Positions 8,218 to 32,344 of a stretch of DNA of 64,000 nt are shown in pieces. A program made the translations under genes and the position numbers. The notes beneath the pieces are model-generated. The model was not told the DNA's origin and did no database searches. It saw only the letters and a program-made list of their open reading frames with translations. Origin of the DNA: Natronobacterium texcoconense (GTDB lineage: Archaea > Halobacteriota > Halobacteria > Halobacteriales > Natrialbaceae); assembly GCF_900104065.1 (NCBI RefSeq), contig NZ_FNLC01000002.1:912995-976994 (forward strand), read 5' to 3'. How positions within the stretch are numbered: position 1 is the stretch's first letter; every line of letters begins with the position of its first letter.

Positions 8218-9968
8218 TAGTGAAGGAACGCTCGCAACTGCTCGAGGTCCCAGGTGTTGATCACGTCTTCTGGTTCTGCCCAGCCGCGACGGGCAGTGTG
8301 GACGCCCCAGCGAACGAACTCGAGCGTCGTCGTCCGGTGGGCGTCGGTGTTGATCGCGATCGGTGCGCCCTGTTCGATTGCAGCTTGGACGGCGCTCCCC
8401 CACAGGTCGAGTCGGTGCGGGTTGCTGTTGACCTCGAGGGCGGTGTCGTGGTCGGCCGCGACCCGGCCGAGTTCGGCGGTGTCGAACTCGAGCCCTGAGC
8501 GTTCGTTGAGCAGCCGGCCGCTGGGATGGCCGAGCACGTCGATTGCTGGGTTCTCGAGCGCACGGACGAGACGCTCGGTCGCCGTCTCCGCGTCCTGGTC
8601 GAGACCGCTGTGGGGCGAAGCGACGACGACGTCGAGCGCGTCGATCACTTCCTCCGAGAGACCGATCTCGCCGCTGGCGTCGACGTTCGCCTCGATCCCC
8701 GCGAAGACCTCGATCTCGCTGTCGGTGTCGACCTCGCGGACGACCTCGACCTGTTCCAGGATTTCCTCCTCCGAGAGCCCCATGCCGCCGACGACGCCGG
8801 GACCTTCAGCGTGGTCCGCGATCCCGAAGTAGTCGTAGCCGCGTTCCTCGGCGGCTGCGACCATCTCCGCGACGGTATTGTTCCCGTCCGACCACTCGGT
8901 ATGGGTGTGGAGGTCGCCCCGAATGTCCTCCCGGGTCAGCAGGTCCGGCAGCTCGCCGTTTTCCGCAGCTGCGATCTCCCCGCGATCCTCGCGGAGTTCC
9001 GGTGGAATCCAGGGGAGGCCGAGCGCCTCGTACATCCCTTCCTCGGTGTCGCCGGCGACGCGGTCGCCGACCCGCTGGCCTTCCTGGGCATCCTCGAGGT
9101 CGCTGACGTCGAACGCACCGTACTCGTTCAACTTCATCTCGCGGTCGATCGCGTAGTTGCGAAGCCGAACGTTGTGGTCCTTGCTGCCCGTAAAGTACTG
9201 CAGCGCGGAGCCGAACTCCTCCGGCGCGACGACTCGCAGATCGATCCGGATCTCGCCGACGCGGACGCTGGCCTTCGCAGGGCCGGACTCGATCTCGCTG
9301 TCGACGGAATCCCAGTCGACGAACGCCTCGACCACGTCCTCCGGCGAGTCGGTCGCCGCGAGCACGTCCACGTCGCCGATCGTCTCGCGCCACCGCCGGA
9401 TCGAACCTGCGACCTCACATCGGTCGACAGTCTCGAGTCCCTCGAGAAAGGCGAGCACGTCGTCCGCGAGCGGTCGAGCCTCACCCAGTAAGTGTCGCTG
9501 TCCGACCTCGCGGGCGAACTCGAGGTTGTCGCGGATATTCTCCTCTGTCTTGGGACCGAACCCCTTGACCTCCTGAATCTCGCCGTTCTCGGCGGCTTCC
9601 TCGAGGTCGTCTAACGTCTCGATTCCGAGTTCCCGATACAGTTTCCCGGCCGTCTTCGGGCCGACGCCCTCGATCCGCGTGACGTCCGCGATGTCGATCG
9701 GCAACTCAGCGCGCAGTTCCTCGAGTTCCTCGATCGCGCCGGTCTCGACGTACTCGACGATCTTCGAGGCGATGGCGTCGCCGATTCCCTCGATCCCCTC
9801 GATGGCCTCGCGGTCGCCGTCGGCGACGTAGTCCGCGATCGGCGTCGGATGCGAGCGGACGTTCTCCGCCGCACGGCGGTACGCCCGGGGCTTGTACTCG
9901 ACGTCGTCGGCCTCGAGCAGGTCGGCGAACTCCTCGAATCGGCCGGCAATTTCGGCGTTCGTCGCCAT
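8217..9968 (-). CDS. polX: Family X DNA polymerase with PHP domain (PolX)
   Basis: A 583-residue PolX that fills short gaps in base-excision or end repair. In order: an N-terminal helix-hairpin-helix 8-kDa domain (about 1-150, with GIGDAIASKIVEY and VEGVGPKTAGKLY-type HhH motifs); a nucleotidyltransferase palm (SIRRWRETIGDVDVLA, the DxD metal site); thumb (about 200-320); and a C-terminal PHP domain (DLHTHTEWSDG to HPSGRL and NTDAH) that gives 3'-5' exonuclease or phosphatase activity. The length matches the bacterial/archaeal type. It overlaps its upstream gene (TGATG) and downstream gene (TAATG) by one base each. Confidence 0.95.
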   Translation of the reverse strand: MATNAEIAGRFEEFADLLEADDVEYKPRAYRRAAENVRSHPTPIADYVADGDREAIEGIEGIGDAIASKIVEYVETGAIEELEELRAELPIDIADVTRIEGVGPKTAGKLYRELGIETLDDLEEAAENGEIQEVKGFGPKTEENIRDNLEFAREVGQRHLLGEARPLADDVLAFLEGLETVDRCEVAGSIRRWRETIGDVDVLAATDSPEDVVEAFVDWDSVDSEIESGPAKASVRVGEIRIDLRVVAPEEFGSALQYFTGSKDHNVRLRNYAIDREMKLNEYGAFDVSDLEDAQEGQRVGDRVAGDTEEGMYEALGLPWIPPELREDRGEIAAAENGELPDLLTREDIRGDLHTHTEWSDGNNTVAEMVAAAEERGYDYFGIADHAEGPGVVGGMGLSEEEILEQVEVVREVDTDSEIEVFAGIEANVDASGEIGLSEEVIDALDVVVASPHSGLDQDAETATERLVRALENPAIDVLGHPSGRLLNERSGLEFDTAELGRVAADHDTALEVNSNPHRLDLWGSAVQAAIEQGAPIAINTDAHRTTTLEFVRWGVHTARRGWAEPEDVINTWDLEQLRAFLH

Positions 9969-27378: not shown

Positions 27379-28095
27379 CTACCGATCTCGTCGAACCAGT
27401 GCAGCGACGGCCGCGACGATACCGACCGCGGCGACGACGGCTCCGAACCCGGGTACCGTGTCCGCCGCACTCTCGGTTGCTGGCTCGCTACCGTCGTCGG
27501 CCTGGACGACGGCCTCGAAGCCCTCGAGGGCGGCCCCGTCGCTCCAGGTCGCCTGCGCTCCGTTCTCTGTCGTCGGTTCCGGCGTCGTTGACTCGAGCGT
27601 CGCGCCCGCTGGAACGGTCAAAATAAGCGCTCGATCTGTCTCGAAGCCGCTGGCAAACGGTTCGTCGACGACGAGTTGGCCGTCGCCGGTCGCCGCGAGC
27701 CCGGACCAGGTCACCGACAGCGTGACGATACCTCGGTCGTCGTCGATTCGAACGTCGACCGAGTCGGCGGTAACCGACATCTCGCGGTCGACCGCGTCGT
27801 CGGCTGCGACCTGCGTCGCGACGCTATCGAGGCGGTTGGCAAACCGCTCGAGCAGTTCCTCCTGGGTCGTCTCGTCGGTACGAATCGACTCGAAGGCGTC
27901 CCGTTCGTCGTCGTCATTCGGGTCGTAGACCGAGACCAGGCTCACCGTCGCGTCGCCGTCTTCCTCGAGGTCGACGACGAGGGACGGGTCGTCGGCTGAA
28001 ACGTCGTCGCTCGAGGCGGCGACCGGCGTCGTGACCCCGCTTATCAGAAGCAGGGATGCAACGGCGACGGCGGCAAACGTTCCCAGCAATCTCAT
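27379..28095 (-). CDS. DUF7345-like PGF-CTERM surface protein
   Basis: A 238-residue exported protein with an N-terminal signal peptide (about 1-27). The extracellular domain (about 35-185) contains AFESI, LLERFANRLDSV, DREMSV and GIVTLSVTW blocks. The same blocks in the same order occur in the membrane regulator at 30781-31815. The C-terminus TVPGFGAVVAAVGIVAAVAALVRR is a PGF-CTERM signal (split at 210-235), the archaeosortase A target for C-terminal lipid anchoring. The gene overlaps the preceding gene by four bases (ATGA), so they form an operon. The DUF number is from memory. Confidence 0.72.
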   Translation of the reverse strand: MRLLGTFAAVAVASLLLISGVTTPVAASSDDVSADDPSLVVDLEEDGDATVSLVSVYDPNDDDERDAFESIRTDETTQEELLERFANRLDSVATQVAADDAVDREMSVTADSVDVRIDDDRGIVTLSVTWSGLAATGDGQLVVDEPFASGFETDRALILTVPAGATLESTTPEPTTENGAQATWSDGAALEGFEAVVQADDGSEPATESAADTVPGFGAVVAAVGIVAAVAALVRRDR

Positions 28096-28856
28096 CGGTT
28101 ACCGGAGTCACCAGTATCGCTATCCTGTTCGTCAGAGACCTCGGTTTCCGAACTCTCGGTTTGGTCGTCGTCTTCGCTAGTCTCGTTGCCGGGTTCGTCG
28201 TCAGCAGGCGTCTCGTCTGCAGGGTTGTCGCCACGCTCCTGTCCGGGCACGTCGATCGGTGCGCCCGGCTCGCGGTCCGCTGCGGGCGTCTGACCGACGC
28301 GGTCGCCGGCGATCGACTGTGCGATCTCGGCGACTTCGGGTCCGGTCAGTTCGTTCGCGCGTTCGCGGAGTTCCGCGAGCGCGTCGACGTCGACCGCGTG
28401 TTCGGGAGGCAACTCGCTCGCAGTCGCGTTCGCGTCCTCGGCCAGTCGTTCGACCGTCGCCCGTTCCGCAGCAACCGTCGCTACCTCGGCGCGGTACTGC
28501 CCTTCGGTGATCTCGCCCGACTCGCGGGCGTCCTCGAGGTCGTCGAGTCGCTGCTCGACGTCGTCGAGTCGCTGCTCAACGTCGTCGATCTGTTCGTTCA
28601 CGACGTCCGCCTTGGCCTCGTCTGACTGGGCGTTGGCGAGTTTGACGCCGTACGTTCGCTCGGTCACTTCACCGTCGATCTCCGCGTTCTGGACTGCGAC
28701 GACGCCGGAAAGCCGTTCACCTGGCGTCGTCTCGTCCGAATCGTCTGCATCAGTCTGTGGCTGTGCGTCCGTGCCGACGCTGGCCGCGCCGAGCGGGGCT
28801 ACCGCCAGCGCGACGACGAGTGCGCCGACCAGTGCGACGATCGTTGCTCGCTTCAT
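28092..28856 (-). CDS. Secreted coiled-coil protein with acidic tail
   Basis: A 254-residue exported protein starting MKRATIVALVGALVVALA, a signal peptide to about residue 28. The middle (about 80-140) is a coiled coil built on two exact DDVEQRL heptads followed by DDLEDARE; the DNA shows a matching 21-base tandem repeat near 28540-28575. The last 60 residues are an acidic, threonine- and serine-rich disordered tail. It is first in a two-gene operon with the PGF-CTERM protein and probably resides at the cell surface. ATG 28856 is preferred over 28886. Confidence 0.7.
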   Translation of the reverse strand: MKRATIVALVGALVVALAVAPLGAASVGTDAQPQTDADDSDETTPGERLSGVVAVQNAEIDGEVTERTYGVKLANAQSDEAKADVVNEQIDDVEQRLDDVEQRLDDLEDARESGEITEGQYRAEVATVAAERATVERLAEDANATASELPPEHAVDVDALAELRERANELTGPEVAEIAQSIAGDRVGQTPAADREPGAPIDVPGQERGDNPADETPADDEPGNETSEDDDQTESSETEVSDEQDSDTGDSGNR

Positions 28857-29082
28857 TACACTCTCCTCTGAGAATCCCGGGAGCATATATACTCGAGACG
28901 GTAGCTCCGGTTCAACGATCGTTAACGCGATTTTCGTCGCCGCTCCATCGTGCGATTTCGTGCAATTGAGGGAGATCGGCGCGGAGACGAAATCGGGGTT
29001 CTAGTCTGGAGCCGAGACGAACTGCGACCGCGGAATCGTCGAAACCGATTCGCGGCCTCGGTACCGGATTACCGATCCGCCG

Positions 29083-30516
29083 CTACCGGGGCGGAACGAA
29101 ACGGCCACCGTCGCTCGAGCGAGCGCGGCTGCTCGCCTCGTTGCCGCCGAGGATCTCGTCGATATCGTAGTAGTGACCGGGGCCGCCGCCGTCCCTTCCG
29201 CGGGCGGGTTTTGCCGATACGTCGAACGTGTACGCGCCAGTATCGGAATCCGTAACGAAAGCGAAATCGCGTTCCTCGTTGTAATGGGCTCCCCAGGCGT
29301 ACGGCACGGCGTCGATTCCGTCGTCAGTGGCGTACCGTTCCGTCGGCGTCGGATCGGTCGGATCGGTGATGTTTGCGACCCACGCACCCTGGGTGTAGCC
29401 GCCGTCGATCAGTAACACCTCGCCGCGGTCGTAGACCACGTCGTGGAAGTGCCCTGTCCAGGCTCCGGGTTCCTCGTCCTGATCGCGGGCGTCGGGCGAG
29501 TGCGTGAAGCCGATCGGAACGGGATCCCCGAGGCTGCCCTCGCCCCAGCCAGTGTCGAAGACGTGTTTGCCGCCAGGAATGCCGCCGAACTTCTCGTCGC
29601 CCATGATCGCGAGTTCCCGTTCGGGCTCGGGGTGGATCTGGTGGGCCAGTTCGAACCCCGGCTCGCCGAGTTCGGTGTAATCCGGCTGTTCTTCGTAGTC
29701 GAAGAGCCCGAGCTGTCGGGGGTCGTAGGGATCGTCGCTCAGGTCGAACGTGACGTAGCCGACCGTTTCGCCGATGATGTAGGCCGCGTGGAGCGCCTCC
29801 CGACCGGCCTCGACCTCGACGTCGTGGCAGTATCCCGGCGGGCCGAACTGCTCGACGATTTCGGGGTCGTCGGGCTCGCTGAAGTCGACCGAGATGATTC
29901 CCGGCTCGTTGGCGACCTTGTCGATCACGTAGAGGATCGGCTCATCCGGGTGTTCCGTGAGTTTGTGGACGCCCATGTTCGGCGTCTCGAGATACGCGAT
30001 CACCTCCGGCTCCTCGGGGGTTCCCTCCTCCCAGCCGAAGTCGACGACTTCGATACCGAACTTGCCGTCCGGATCCGGTTCGGGATCGAAGAACGATCCC
30101 TCGTCGTTGGCCTCCAGCGCCCGGACGTAGATCCCCTCCCGGTGGGGATCGAACTTGACGTCGTTCGATCGCGTCAGTTCGTTCGGAGCGTCGAGTTCGT
30201 GGACCAGCTCGGGGTTCTCGAGATTCTCGAGGTTGTACAGGCTGCTCGCGGCCAGGCTTTCGCCAGGGAAGCTGCTCACTGCACCCCAGGTGCCGGCCTC
30301 GTCGACGTGTCCGAACGTGTACGTCACGTGGCCGGGGTCGTCTTCCGGTGGCAGGACCTGTCCGAGTTTGTCGAGCCGACCGCGCGTCCGTCGCCGGTCG
30401 CGGCCTTCTCGACCTCGTGAGCGGGTTGCAGCTCCGGTTGTGCTGGCAACTCCGATCGCCGCGATGCTTGCGATACTGACCTCTGTTACGAATCGTCGTC
30501 GCGATTTCCCGGTCAT
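29083..30516 (-). CDS. Tat-exported LVIVD-repeat beta-propeller protein
   Basis: A 477-residue protein with a Tat signal (SRRRFVTEVSIASIAAIG, about 5-22). The rest is a string of beta-propeller-like repeats of the LVIVD type: GIISVDFSEPDDPEIV, GYVTFDLSDDPYDPRQ and GAWVANITDPTDPTPT share the VDxSDPxxP pattern. A histidine-rich stretch (TGHFHDVVYD, YCHDVEVE) could bind metal. Such proteins are probably secreted binding or adhesion proteins. No neighbouring operon partner is evident. Confidence 0.75.
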   Translation of the reverse strand: MTGKSRRRFVTEVSIASIAAIGVASTTGAATRSRGREGRDRRRTRGRLDKLGQVLPPEDDPGHVTYTFGHVDEAGTWGAVSSFPGESLAASSLYNLENLENPELVHELDAPNELTRSNDVKFDPHREGIYVRALEANDEGSFFDPEPDPDGKFGIEVVDFGWEEGTPEEPEVIAYLETPNMGVHKLTEHPDEPILYVIDKVANEPGIISVDFSEPDDPEIVEQFGPPGYCHDVEVEAGREALHAAYIIGETVGYVTFDLSDDPYDPRQLGLFDYEEQPDYTELGEPGFELAHQIHPEPERELAIMGDEKFGGIPGGKHVFDTGWGEGSLGDPVPIGFTHSPDARDQDEEPGAWTGHFHDVVYDRGEVLLIDGGYTQGAWVANITDPTDPTPTERYATDDGIDAVPYAWGAHYNEERDFAFVTDSDTGAYTFDVSAKPARGRDGGGPGHYYDIDEILGGNEASSRARSSDGGRFVPPR

Positions 30517-30780
30517 TTCGATCAGCCAGTGCGAAACACTGACGATCTATTGGTAACCACCACATCTAATAAACACACGAAAAGTATTTCATATTTTGGA
30601 AGATCAGGGAGAATATTACCCCTTGGGCCGAGTATAGCGACCGTTCGATATTGGAGAGAGCGACGTAGACACTCTCGGTCACCGGATCTCGACGGGACAG
30701 CTCGGCGATCGATCGGATCCACTCGGTAAGCGAAGCCACAGAACGAAAGGGAGAACCGGACTTGCGGTTCACGCCTCGAG

Positions 30781-31815
30781 TTACTCGTCGTCCGGCAACG
30801 AGAGCACGTTCTCGCGGCCGAGCCGGAACGACTCGAGTTTGTCCTCCTCGCGCAGGCCGCTAACGACCTTGCTCGTCTTGGCGTCGGTCCACTCGAGTTC
30901 TTCGACGACCGTTTGCTGTTTCATCCGGCCGTCGTACTCCTCGAGCAACAGCAGGACCTGTTCTTCGTTGCTCAGCAGATCGTCCCGTGGGTTCGGTCGC
31001 TCGTCTCGCCGTTCGTCCTCTTCGGGCGGTGACGATGGCACCTCGGCCGACTCGTCGCTCGAGTCAGCCCTGCCCGACGAACGCGATCGATACCACCACG
31101 CTGTACCGAGACCGATCGACGCGATTGCGACGAGGACGCCCGCTGTCGTCCCGATACCGACCCCGCCACTCGAGACGACGACCCGGGGTTCGCCGGTGAC
31201 GAAGTCGGTCTCGCTGCCGTGCCAGATGACCGTCCGGTCGCGCTGATCGTCCGGTTCGGGCGCAGCCGACGTCAGTTCGTACTCGTCCGGCCAGCTAACC
31301 AGCAACTGCGTGCCGTCGTCGAGGTAGAGTCCCTCGATCGCGTCACCGGCTCGTAGCTCGTCGCCCTCGACGTCGGCGAACCCGTCCCAGTGGAACGAGT
31401 ACCTGACGACGCCGTACTCGGGTCCGAACGACTGGCGCTGGGTCGACACCTGGAACTCGTCGGCAGCCATCTCGCGGTCCGTGGCGTCGCTTGCGGCCTG
31501 GACGGTTCCGTCCATGCGCGTGGCGAACTCCTCGAGGAAGGCGTCAGGGTCCTCCTCGATCTCGGCCTCGAGCGACTCGAAGGCTGCAGTGCTCTCCTCG
31601 TCGTCGAGTTGGACCCAGAACTCGACGGTCCACTCCGCGGAGCCGTCGGACTGGAGCGCGACGTCCAGTCGAACGTCGTCCGCATCGACCTCGTCTAGCT
31701 GTGCGGACAGCGATCCGGTCTCGACCCCGTCATCCGTCCCGGTCGCGATCGGACCAGTTCCCACCACGGTCGCCCCGACGACGAGTACGACCAGACAGAC
31801 GATCCGGAAATTCAT
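30781..31815 (-). CDS. Membrane-spanning winged-helix regulator with DUF7345-like sensor
   Basis: A 344-residue one-component regulator. Signal peptide 1-25; extracellular domain 40-212 of the DUF7345 type (AFESLEAEI, FLEEFATRMDG, DREMAADE, YGVVRYSFHWDG). One membrane span follows at about 219-242, then a disordered linker and a C-terminal MarR-like winged helix at 281-340 (LSNEEQVLLLLEEYDGRMKQ and DAKTSKVVSGLREE), the DUF7343 type. The layout suggests an outside signal is passed straight to a DNA-binding domain tethered to the membrane. Its outer domain is related to the PGF-CTERM protein 2.7 kb away. Confidence 0.8.
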   Translation of the reverse strand: MNFRIVCLVVLVVGATVVGTGPIATGTDDGVETGSLSAQLDEVDADDVRLDVALQSDGSAEWTVEFWVQLDDEESTAAFESLEAEIEEDPDAFLEEFATRMDGTVQAASDATDREMAADEFQVSTQRQSFGPEYGVVRYSFHWDGFADVEGDELRAGDAIEGLYLDDGTQLLVSWPDEYELTSAAPEPDDQRDRTVIWHGSETDFVTGEPRVVVSSGGVGIGTTAGVLVAIASIGLGTAWWYRSRSSGRADSSDESAEVPSSPPEEDERRDERPNPRDDLLSNEEQVLLLLEEYDGRMKQQTVVEELEWTDAKTSKVVSGLREEDKLESFRLGRENVLSLPDDE

Positions 31816-31887: not shown

Positions 31888-31973
31888 CTATAGTGGCCAC
31901 TGAAAGTCAGTGCGCACCCGATCGCACGACAGCGGTGCGATCGGTGTGCAAACAGTTTCAGTTGTTACTATAG
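31888..31973. repeat. Palindromic element with CTATAG ends (family B)
   Basis: The 86-base element begins CTATAGTGGCCACTGAAAG and ends with the approximate inverse, TTTCAGTTGTTACTATAG. An inner stem CCGATCGCAC with GTGCGATCGG closes a short GACAGC loop. TTACTATAG occurs as a 9-base direct repeat at both ends (31885, 31965). The right end encodes the last codons and stop of the small minus-strand gene. Confidence 0.75.
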
Positions 31974-32227
31974 CGATTCGTCACGTCGACACCATCCCCT
32001 ACTGCGACGGCGCTGGCAGGGGTGAGATTACTGACGGCCTGTCCGAGCGACGACGCCACACTGGAGACGCCGTCACCGATCGCCTCGAGTACGTCCGTCA
32101 CGAACTCCGGAACCGGGTCCGGCAGGTCACTCGGCGGTCCGTTCCCCTGATCTGCCATCGCGACCCCAGTCGTTCCGACTAGGACGGCGACGGCGACCGT
32201 CAACGTGAGTATTGCGATGCGTGACAT
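31958..32227 (-). CDS. Small exported protein ending inside a repeat element
   Basis: An 89-residue protein starting MSRIAILTLTVAVAVLVGTTGVAMA, read in two parts: a positive start and a signal peptide cleaved after about residue 25. The mature region DQGNGPPSDLPDPVPEF leads to an amphipathic helix (LEAIGDGVSSVASSLGQAVSNL). The last residues RYSNN and the TGA come from the right end of the palindromic element at 31888-31973, so the original C-terminus may have been replaced. ATG 32227 is preferred over 32260. The function is unknown. Confidence 0.5.
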   Translation of the reverse strand: MSRIAILTLTVAVAVLVGTTGVAMADQGNGPPSDLPDPVPEFVTDVLEAIGDGVSSVASSLGQAVSNLTPASAVAVGDGVDVTNRYSNN

Positions 32228-32344
32228 CACGTCAGGTTCGAGAAGAGTCACGGTATTCAATCAGATCCTTTGTCTCGGCGACTTACAGCGATTTTCGACC
32301 GTTTTCGGCGATTTGAACGGAATCGATCGGAGGACCTGCCAACA

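Follow-up and report, generated by a model that had tools for sequence, protein, structure and literature searches.

A candidate surface-sensing module of Halobacteria in which a membrane-spanning regulator and a predicted lipid-anchored protein share the DUF7345 domain

In a 64,000-nt stretch of the Natronobacterium texcoconense genome (the window), we found four neighbouring genes, here called P, R, CC and S, that we consider somewhat more probably than not to form a surface-sensing module, in which R switches its own P and CC–S units while S and R read the same partner, probably CC. Computation established the shared domain, the order of the genes, the co-divergence of S and R, and operator-like repeats whose sequence goes with the class of R. 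The features, in the direction of transcription, are as follows.

32270–32319, minus strand: second candidate R operator, 10-bp-spaced CGAAAA-like units upstream of P, read from the sequence
31958–32227, minus strand: P, small secreted protein with a GPPxDLPxxVPDFVTDLL...LG...TP stretch, upstream of R
30781–31815, minus strand: R, regulator with a signal peptide, extracellular DUF7345, transmembrane helix 223–246, a linker and a cytoplasmic MarR-like winged helix (DUF7343)
29083–30516, minus strand: inserted gene for a Tat-exported protein between R and CC, outside the module
28908–28938, minus strand: candidate R operator, units CGAAAAT / CGCGTTAACG / ATCGTTGAAC with a 10-bp period
28884–28893, minus strand: TATA-like element of the CC–S promoter, read from the sequence, ~30 nt before the start codon
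28092–28856, minus strand: CC, unanchored secreted helical protein, a distant DUF7096 relative
27379–28095, minus strand: S, surface protein predicted to be secreted and held by a lipid anchor, with a single DUF7345 and PGF-CTERM

The first-pass annotation had proposed that S and R have a common outer domain. Indeed, Pfam places DUF7345 (PF24036, cut-off 27.5 bits) in both proteins, at residues 52–179 of R (E 2.9e-30, 105.6 bits) and residues 41–172 of S (E 1.7e-19, 70.7 bits), and the two align directly with 30% identity over 169 columns (E 2e-12). The blocks cited in support are all real, with AFES and DREM in both proteins, FANRLD matching FATRMD, and TWSG matching HWDG; both ORFs lie on the minus strand where they had been placed. 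The genome has five DUF7345 domains in total, four of them in DUF7343 regulators; the fifth is that of S, which alone among these proteins lacks DUF7343. Other lineages of the phylum have the domain as well, though sparsely.

R was proposed to span the membrane and to end in a DNA-binding domain, and both proposals are supported by a predicted transmembrane helix and by DUF7343 (PF24034; E 4.5e-27, 94.1 bits against a cut-off of 27.6). The transmembrane stretch was found in 98% of R rows. The structure model of R (mean pLDDT 82.7) has a high-confidence ectodomain at residues 45–215 followed by the helix at 223–246, and the modelled winged helix superposes on the MarR-family protein PcaV (4fht) at 1.6 Å over 65 columns. 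A PDB sequence search with R gave no match. As folds for the ectodomain, FMO (low E but TM 0.18) and LppM (TM 0.36 by target) were rejected; the modelled ectodomain has no convincing solved relative, hence no fold is assigned.

The lipid anchor predicted for S agrees with a Pfam match to PGF-CTERM (PF18204) at 20.9 bits, above the cut-off of 18.8; the NCBIfam PGF_CTERM model scored 19.5, under its cut-off of 24.5. S has the layout of an archaeosortase substrate (a signal peptide, a C-terminal PGF, a hydrophobic stretch and a basic end), and PGF is present in 44 of 58 S rows. Pfam gave no match to the DUF7343 winged helix (PF24034) in S. On the other strand, S is adjoined by a CAAX-protease-like membrane protein (Rce1-like, PF02517; 26637–27356).

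To place these genes in context, neighbours were called by profile search at 60 fetched loci, plus 20 from other families, and 101 genomes of the family were searched with S, R and CC. The loci are arranged as R–CC–S, as R–CC, or as divergent R and CC–S; at one locus (L202) the apparent order is S–R–CC–S, with two S genes. A close relative of S occurs in about 20 of the 101 family genomes. In the first set of 33 S loci, CC directly precedes S in 31 and R is in the cluster in 24. When the S alignment was used to scan species genomes, 23 named loci came up, including Halopenitus, Halobellus, Halorubrum, Natronomonas, Halorientalis, Haloarcula and Halosimplex; six were genomes already in the set and were left out of the combined counts, and the other 17 have CC in 15 and R in 13. 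Combined, CC lies immediately upstream of S at 46/50 loci and R is in the cluster at 37/50, counts that describe the neighbours of S and not the frequency of R without S, as loci had been chosen for S or R–CC.

The earlier suggestion that CC and S share an operon is plausible, since CC overlaps S by 4 bp (28092–28095). Start codons were estimated from signal peptides, and that of CC is likely at 28856, within an ORF that opens at 28886. The gene at 29083–30516 was ruled out as a member of the module, being sporadic (8/41 family genomes) and unlinked elsewhere; it is absent from the fetched R–CC loci of other genomes. Its product is possibly LVIVD-type, with four copies in G030. At the same R–CC spot, locus L113 of the same genus has a membrane transporter-like gene on the opposite strand (8902–9849).

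Of all partners, CC accompanies both S and R most constantly, a point that the first-pass annotation had missed, as it had the sporadic nature of the inserted gene. The AlphaFold2 model of CC has high-confidence helices at residues 55–85, 89–122 and 128–157, and a PDB fold search with it found nothing below E 1e-3. A hydrophobic C-terminus is absent in 83/84 CC relatives, and the PGF motif is lacking too. CC of the window scores under the DUF7096 (PF23379) cut-off of 27; relatives at L105, L165 and L153 exceed it (42.6, 29.6 and 27.9 bits). Of 44 genomes sampled across the class, 43 have their best DUF7096 gene no more than 3 kb from a DUF7345 gene, in 42 of them in divergent orientation, and of all DUF7096 hits 63/74 are within this distance, where ~0.5 would be expected by chance. 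The DUF7345 partner is a DUF7343 regulator in every fetched pair. Since this pairing spans the class, the domain sharing in the window elaborates on a regulator–surface protein pair that is class-wide, to which S is an optional third member. In divergent R/DUF7096 pairs (L133–L135, L143, L172–L190), a strikingly conserved AAAACGCTTTCCATC precedes the R start by some 25–45 nt, and GATAAAACGTC-type elements often come after it; AAAACGCTTTCCATC is probably another regulatory site.

S and R have also diverged together. Over 24 loci their distances correlate with r=0.83, a value that 0 of 2000 permutations reached, and with 0.74 when limited to tandem-type loci; part of this correlation is due to shared species history. 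R types pair with their own S subgroups inside single genomes (e.g. loci L095 and L103 of G018). S and R are thus linked both by clustering at 37/50 loci and by co-divergence. The expectation that they would co-occur across genomes stood only in part: beside the clustered loci, S has no neighbouring R at 13/50, and R with CC but without S is common. S lacks a detectable CC at just 4/50. This closer tie of S to CC than to R points to CC as the probable shared partner, rather than to S and R as a pair.

It is possible, though we think it doubtful, that R senses an unrelated cue, such as the state of the membrane or S-layer, salt or a lipid, with P, CC and S as mere effectors and the shared domain a matter of ancestry. 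R paralogs without CC or S as neighbours occur, and core R–CC loci without S would also fit such a cue, but the class-wide DUF7345–DUF7096 pairing in 43/44 genomes, together with S–R co-divergence, suggests a tighter link. Direct binding of the S and R ectodomains, the view taken in the first-pass annotation, with S as a co-receptor or brake that forms a heterodimer with R or blocks R dimers in the manner of ToxR/ToxS, seems unlikely to us. It draws on the homologous domains, operon linkage, the correlation of distances and the encoding of S in a unit probably controlled by R. However, most genomes have R with CC and no S, and S follows CC more closely than it follows R.

The first-pass annotation had envisaged signalling from the envelope to DNA, and the CC–S promoter is a likely direct target of R. 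Just upstream of its TATA box stand direct repeats, and a TATA-like element is found at the equivalent place in most family CC promoters. At most family loci, at least three units with a 10-bp period lie upstream of CC, e.g. CGGCGTTGAA CGGCGTTAAC CGTCGTTGAA. The best 20-position lag-10 score averages 12.4 over 33 loci, compared with 7.9 in shuffles and 8.05 in 255 other upstream regions at the same loci (p 1e-12). This measure was adopted once the repeats had been seen; the named loci found later behave likewise. At 14 loci from other families the mean is again 12.4 (p 3e-8). The window array reaches only 9/20 by this periodicity measure, and repeats are weak at loci L126, L127 and L099. Since the array stays beside CC in the window and at L113 despite the intervening genes, a separate CC–S promoter is supported. 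Repeats are also kept at CC–S loci without a neighbouring R (L107, L153).

The repeat units change with the recognition helix of R. In class A the helix WTDAKTSK accompanies CGTTRAA (CGTTGAA) or CGAAAAC units, in class B WS[AK]SKTSR accompanies TGCAAA or TGAAAC, and in class C WT[AD]AKTSQ accompanies TTRATC (TTAATC); this pairing recurs in newly found named genomes. The two-unit pattern of class A was found only in class A promoters (7/33) and that of class B only in class B promoters (5/9), while the class C pattern matched 9/14 class C promoters and one of class A. Across 875 kb of loci, the strict patterns of A and C had no match outside these promoters, and the looser B pattern had eight further matches elsewhere. 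The window pair CGTTAACGATCGTTGAAC has a single exact match in the 4.0-Mb genome, at 28910–28927, and TTAATCSGNNTTRATC, of a second class, has 10 matches in 11 genomes, nine of them at CC promoters by coordinates, with zero matches for its reversed control. Both the 10-bp repeats at the CC–S promoter and the helix-matched repeat classes are new here. It is this tracking of R class by near-unique repeats that points to the CC–S promoter as the probable DNA target of R.

A further set of repeats precedes P, which belongs to no Pfam family. In about 25 of 33 class A loci a member of the P family lies upstream of R and is encoded on the strand of R; in several genomes P is present twice or in a form that carries a long acidic tail. 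In the window, the units upstream of P are CGTTCAAATC GCCGAAAACG GTCGAAAATC, and 28 P promoters have a lag-10 mean of 12.0, against 8.5 ± 1.7 in random 100-bp windows. The region upstream of R itself has no 10-bp array by eye.

Phased A-rich units with a 10-bp period are a known feature of DNA bending and wrapping. The repeats might thus be A-runs that bend DNA or place histones, or sites of another regulator, and the phasing fits bending or wrapping. Nevertheless, we judge this improbable: the unit sequence shifts with the recognition helix of R in three classes and in newly found genomes, matches are nearly restricted to these promoters, and the 255 other upstream regions at the same loci lack the periodicity.

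A tree of 101 ectodomains groups 32 of 33 S sequences in one clade apart from R (support 100/96), the sole exception being a long branch, and this rules out that S was recently copied from the adjacent R. That S is a truncated remnant of R without a particular role, as its possession of R's domain without the winged helix might suggest, is very improbable given this single clade, an invariant motif of its own (EPFxSGFxxD), the C-terminal anchor and the wide distribution.

In the module that we favour, R would combine a DUF7345 sensor outside the cell with a MarR-like winged helix in the cytoplasm, with a single membrane helix between them. We infer that R binds the repeats, that it activates rather than represses, and that DUF7345 binds CC. 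R would bind tandem units on one face of the DNA helix upstream of the CC–S TATA box, and probably that of P, and would most likely activate both CC–S and P, since the array sits upstream of the TATA box and not over it, an argument from position alone. CC would be exported without an anchor of its own, and S would display DUF7345 on a lipid anchor. The likeliest explanation for the domain that S and R have in common is that both read one extracellular partner, probably CC or a complex of which it is part. CC is placed in this role because it is unanchored, nearly always precedes the anchored DUF7345 protein and accompanies DUF7345 regulators class-wide. S might hold or titrate this partner on the cell surface, with R relaying the partner's state to the promoter, which would close a feedback loop; control by R seems to be confined to the genes of the module itself. 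More speculatively, R and its lipid-anchored sensor twin could compete for the CC that R controls, in a kinase-free, class-wide loop with a near-unique operator and with P perhaps as the signal, a version that we put forward only tentatively.

Archaeal signalling from the surface to DNA is understood in few cases, and here one protein would reach from outside the cell to the promoter. The core pair spans Halobacteria and comes with predicted target DNA, a predicted partner and a predicted specificity code of three helices and three repeat types. Our literature search found no mention of DUF7345, DUF7343 or DUF7096; Pfam lists them as domains of R, S and CC relatives and names the domains only. 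The module would assign functions to Pfam families that currently have none. RdfA/DdfA and CsmR, from Haloferax papers on cell shape and motility, were considered and are not members of this family, going by the text of those papers.

Three known systems invite comparison. In Sulfolobus, ArnR and ArnR1 belong to the regulatory network of the archaellum (PMC13286277). They resemble R as archaeal transmembrane proteins with an HTH, but they carry it at the N-terminus and undergo phosphorylation by kinases. We know of no DUF7345 or surface twin for either. The haloarchaeal activator GvpE acts at a 20-nt site just upstream of the TATA box and BRE (PMC8241225). The CC–S array has a similar position upstream of the TATA box, but is a phased array rather than a 20-nt element. 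To our knowledge, GvpE has no membrane sensor. In the co-component systems ToxR/ToxS and VtrA/VtrC, a membrane-tethered transcription factor with an extracytoplasmic sensor domain is encoded beside its extracytoplasmic partner (Kinch et al. 2022, PMC9214523). The haloarchaeal module likewise has a membrane-tethered factor and a neighbouring partner gene, as judged from prediction and gene order. However, R has a C-terminal MarR-like winged helix in place of a CadC-like N-terminal HTH, and instead of a lipocalin-like partner there are a lipid-anchored DUF7345 twin and a free helical protein. As both of these defining co-component features are missing, we do not file the module as a member of that group; unlike ToxR/ToxS and VtrA/VtrC, it also has an archaeal host.
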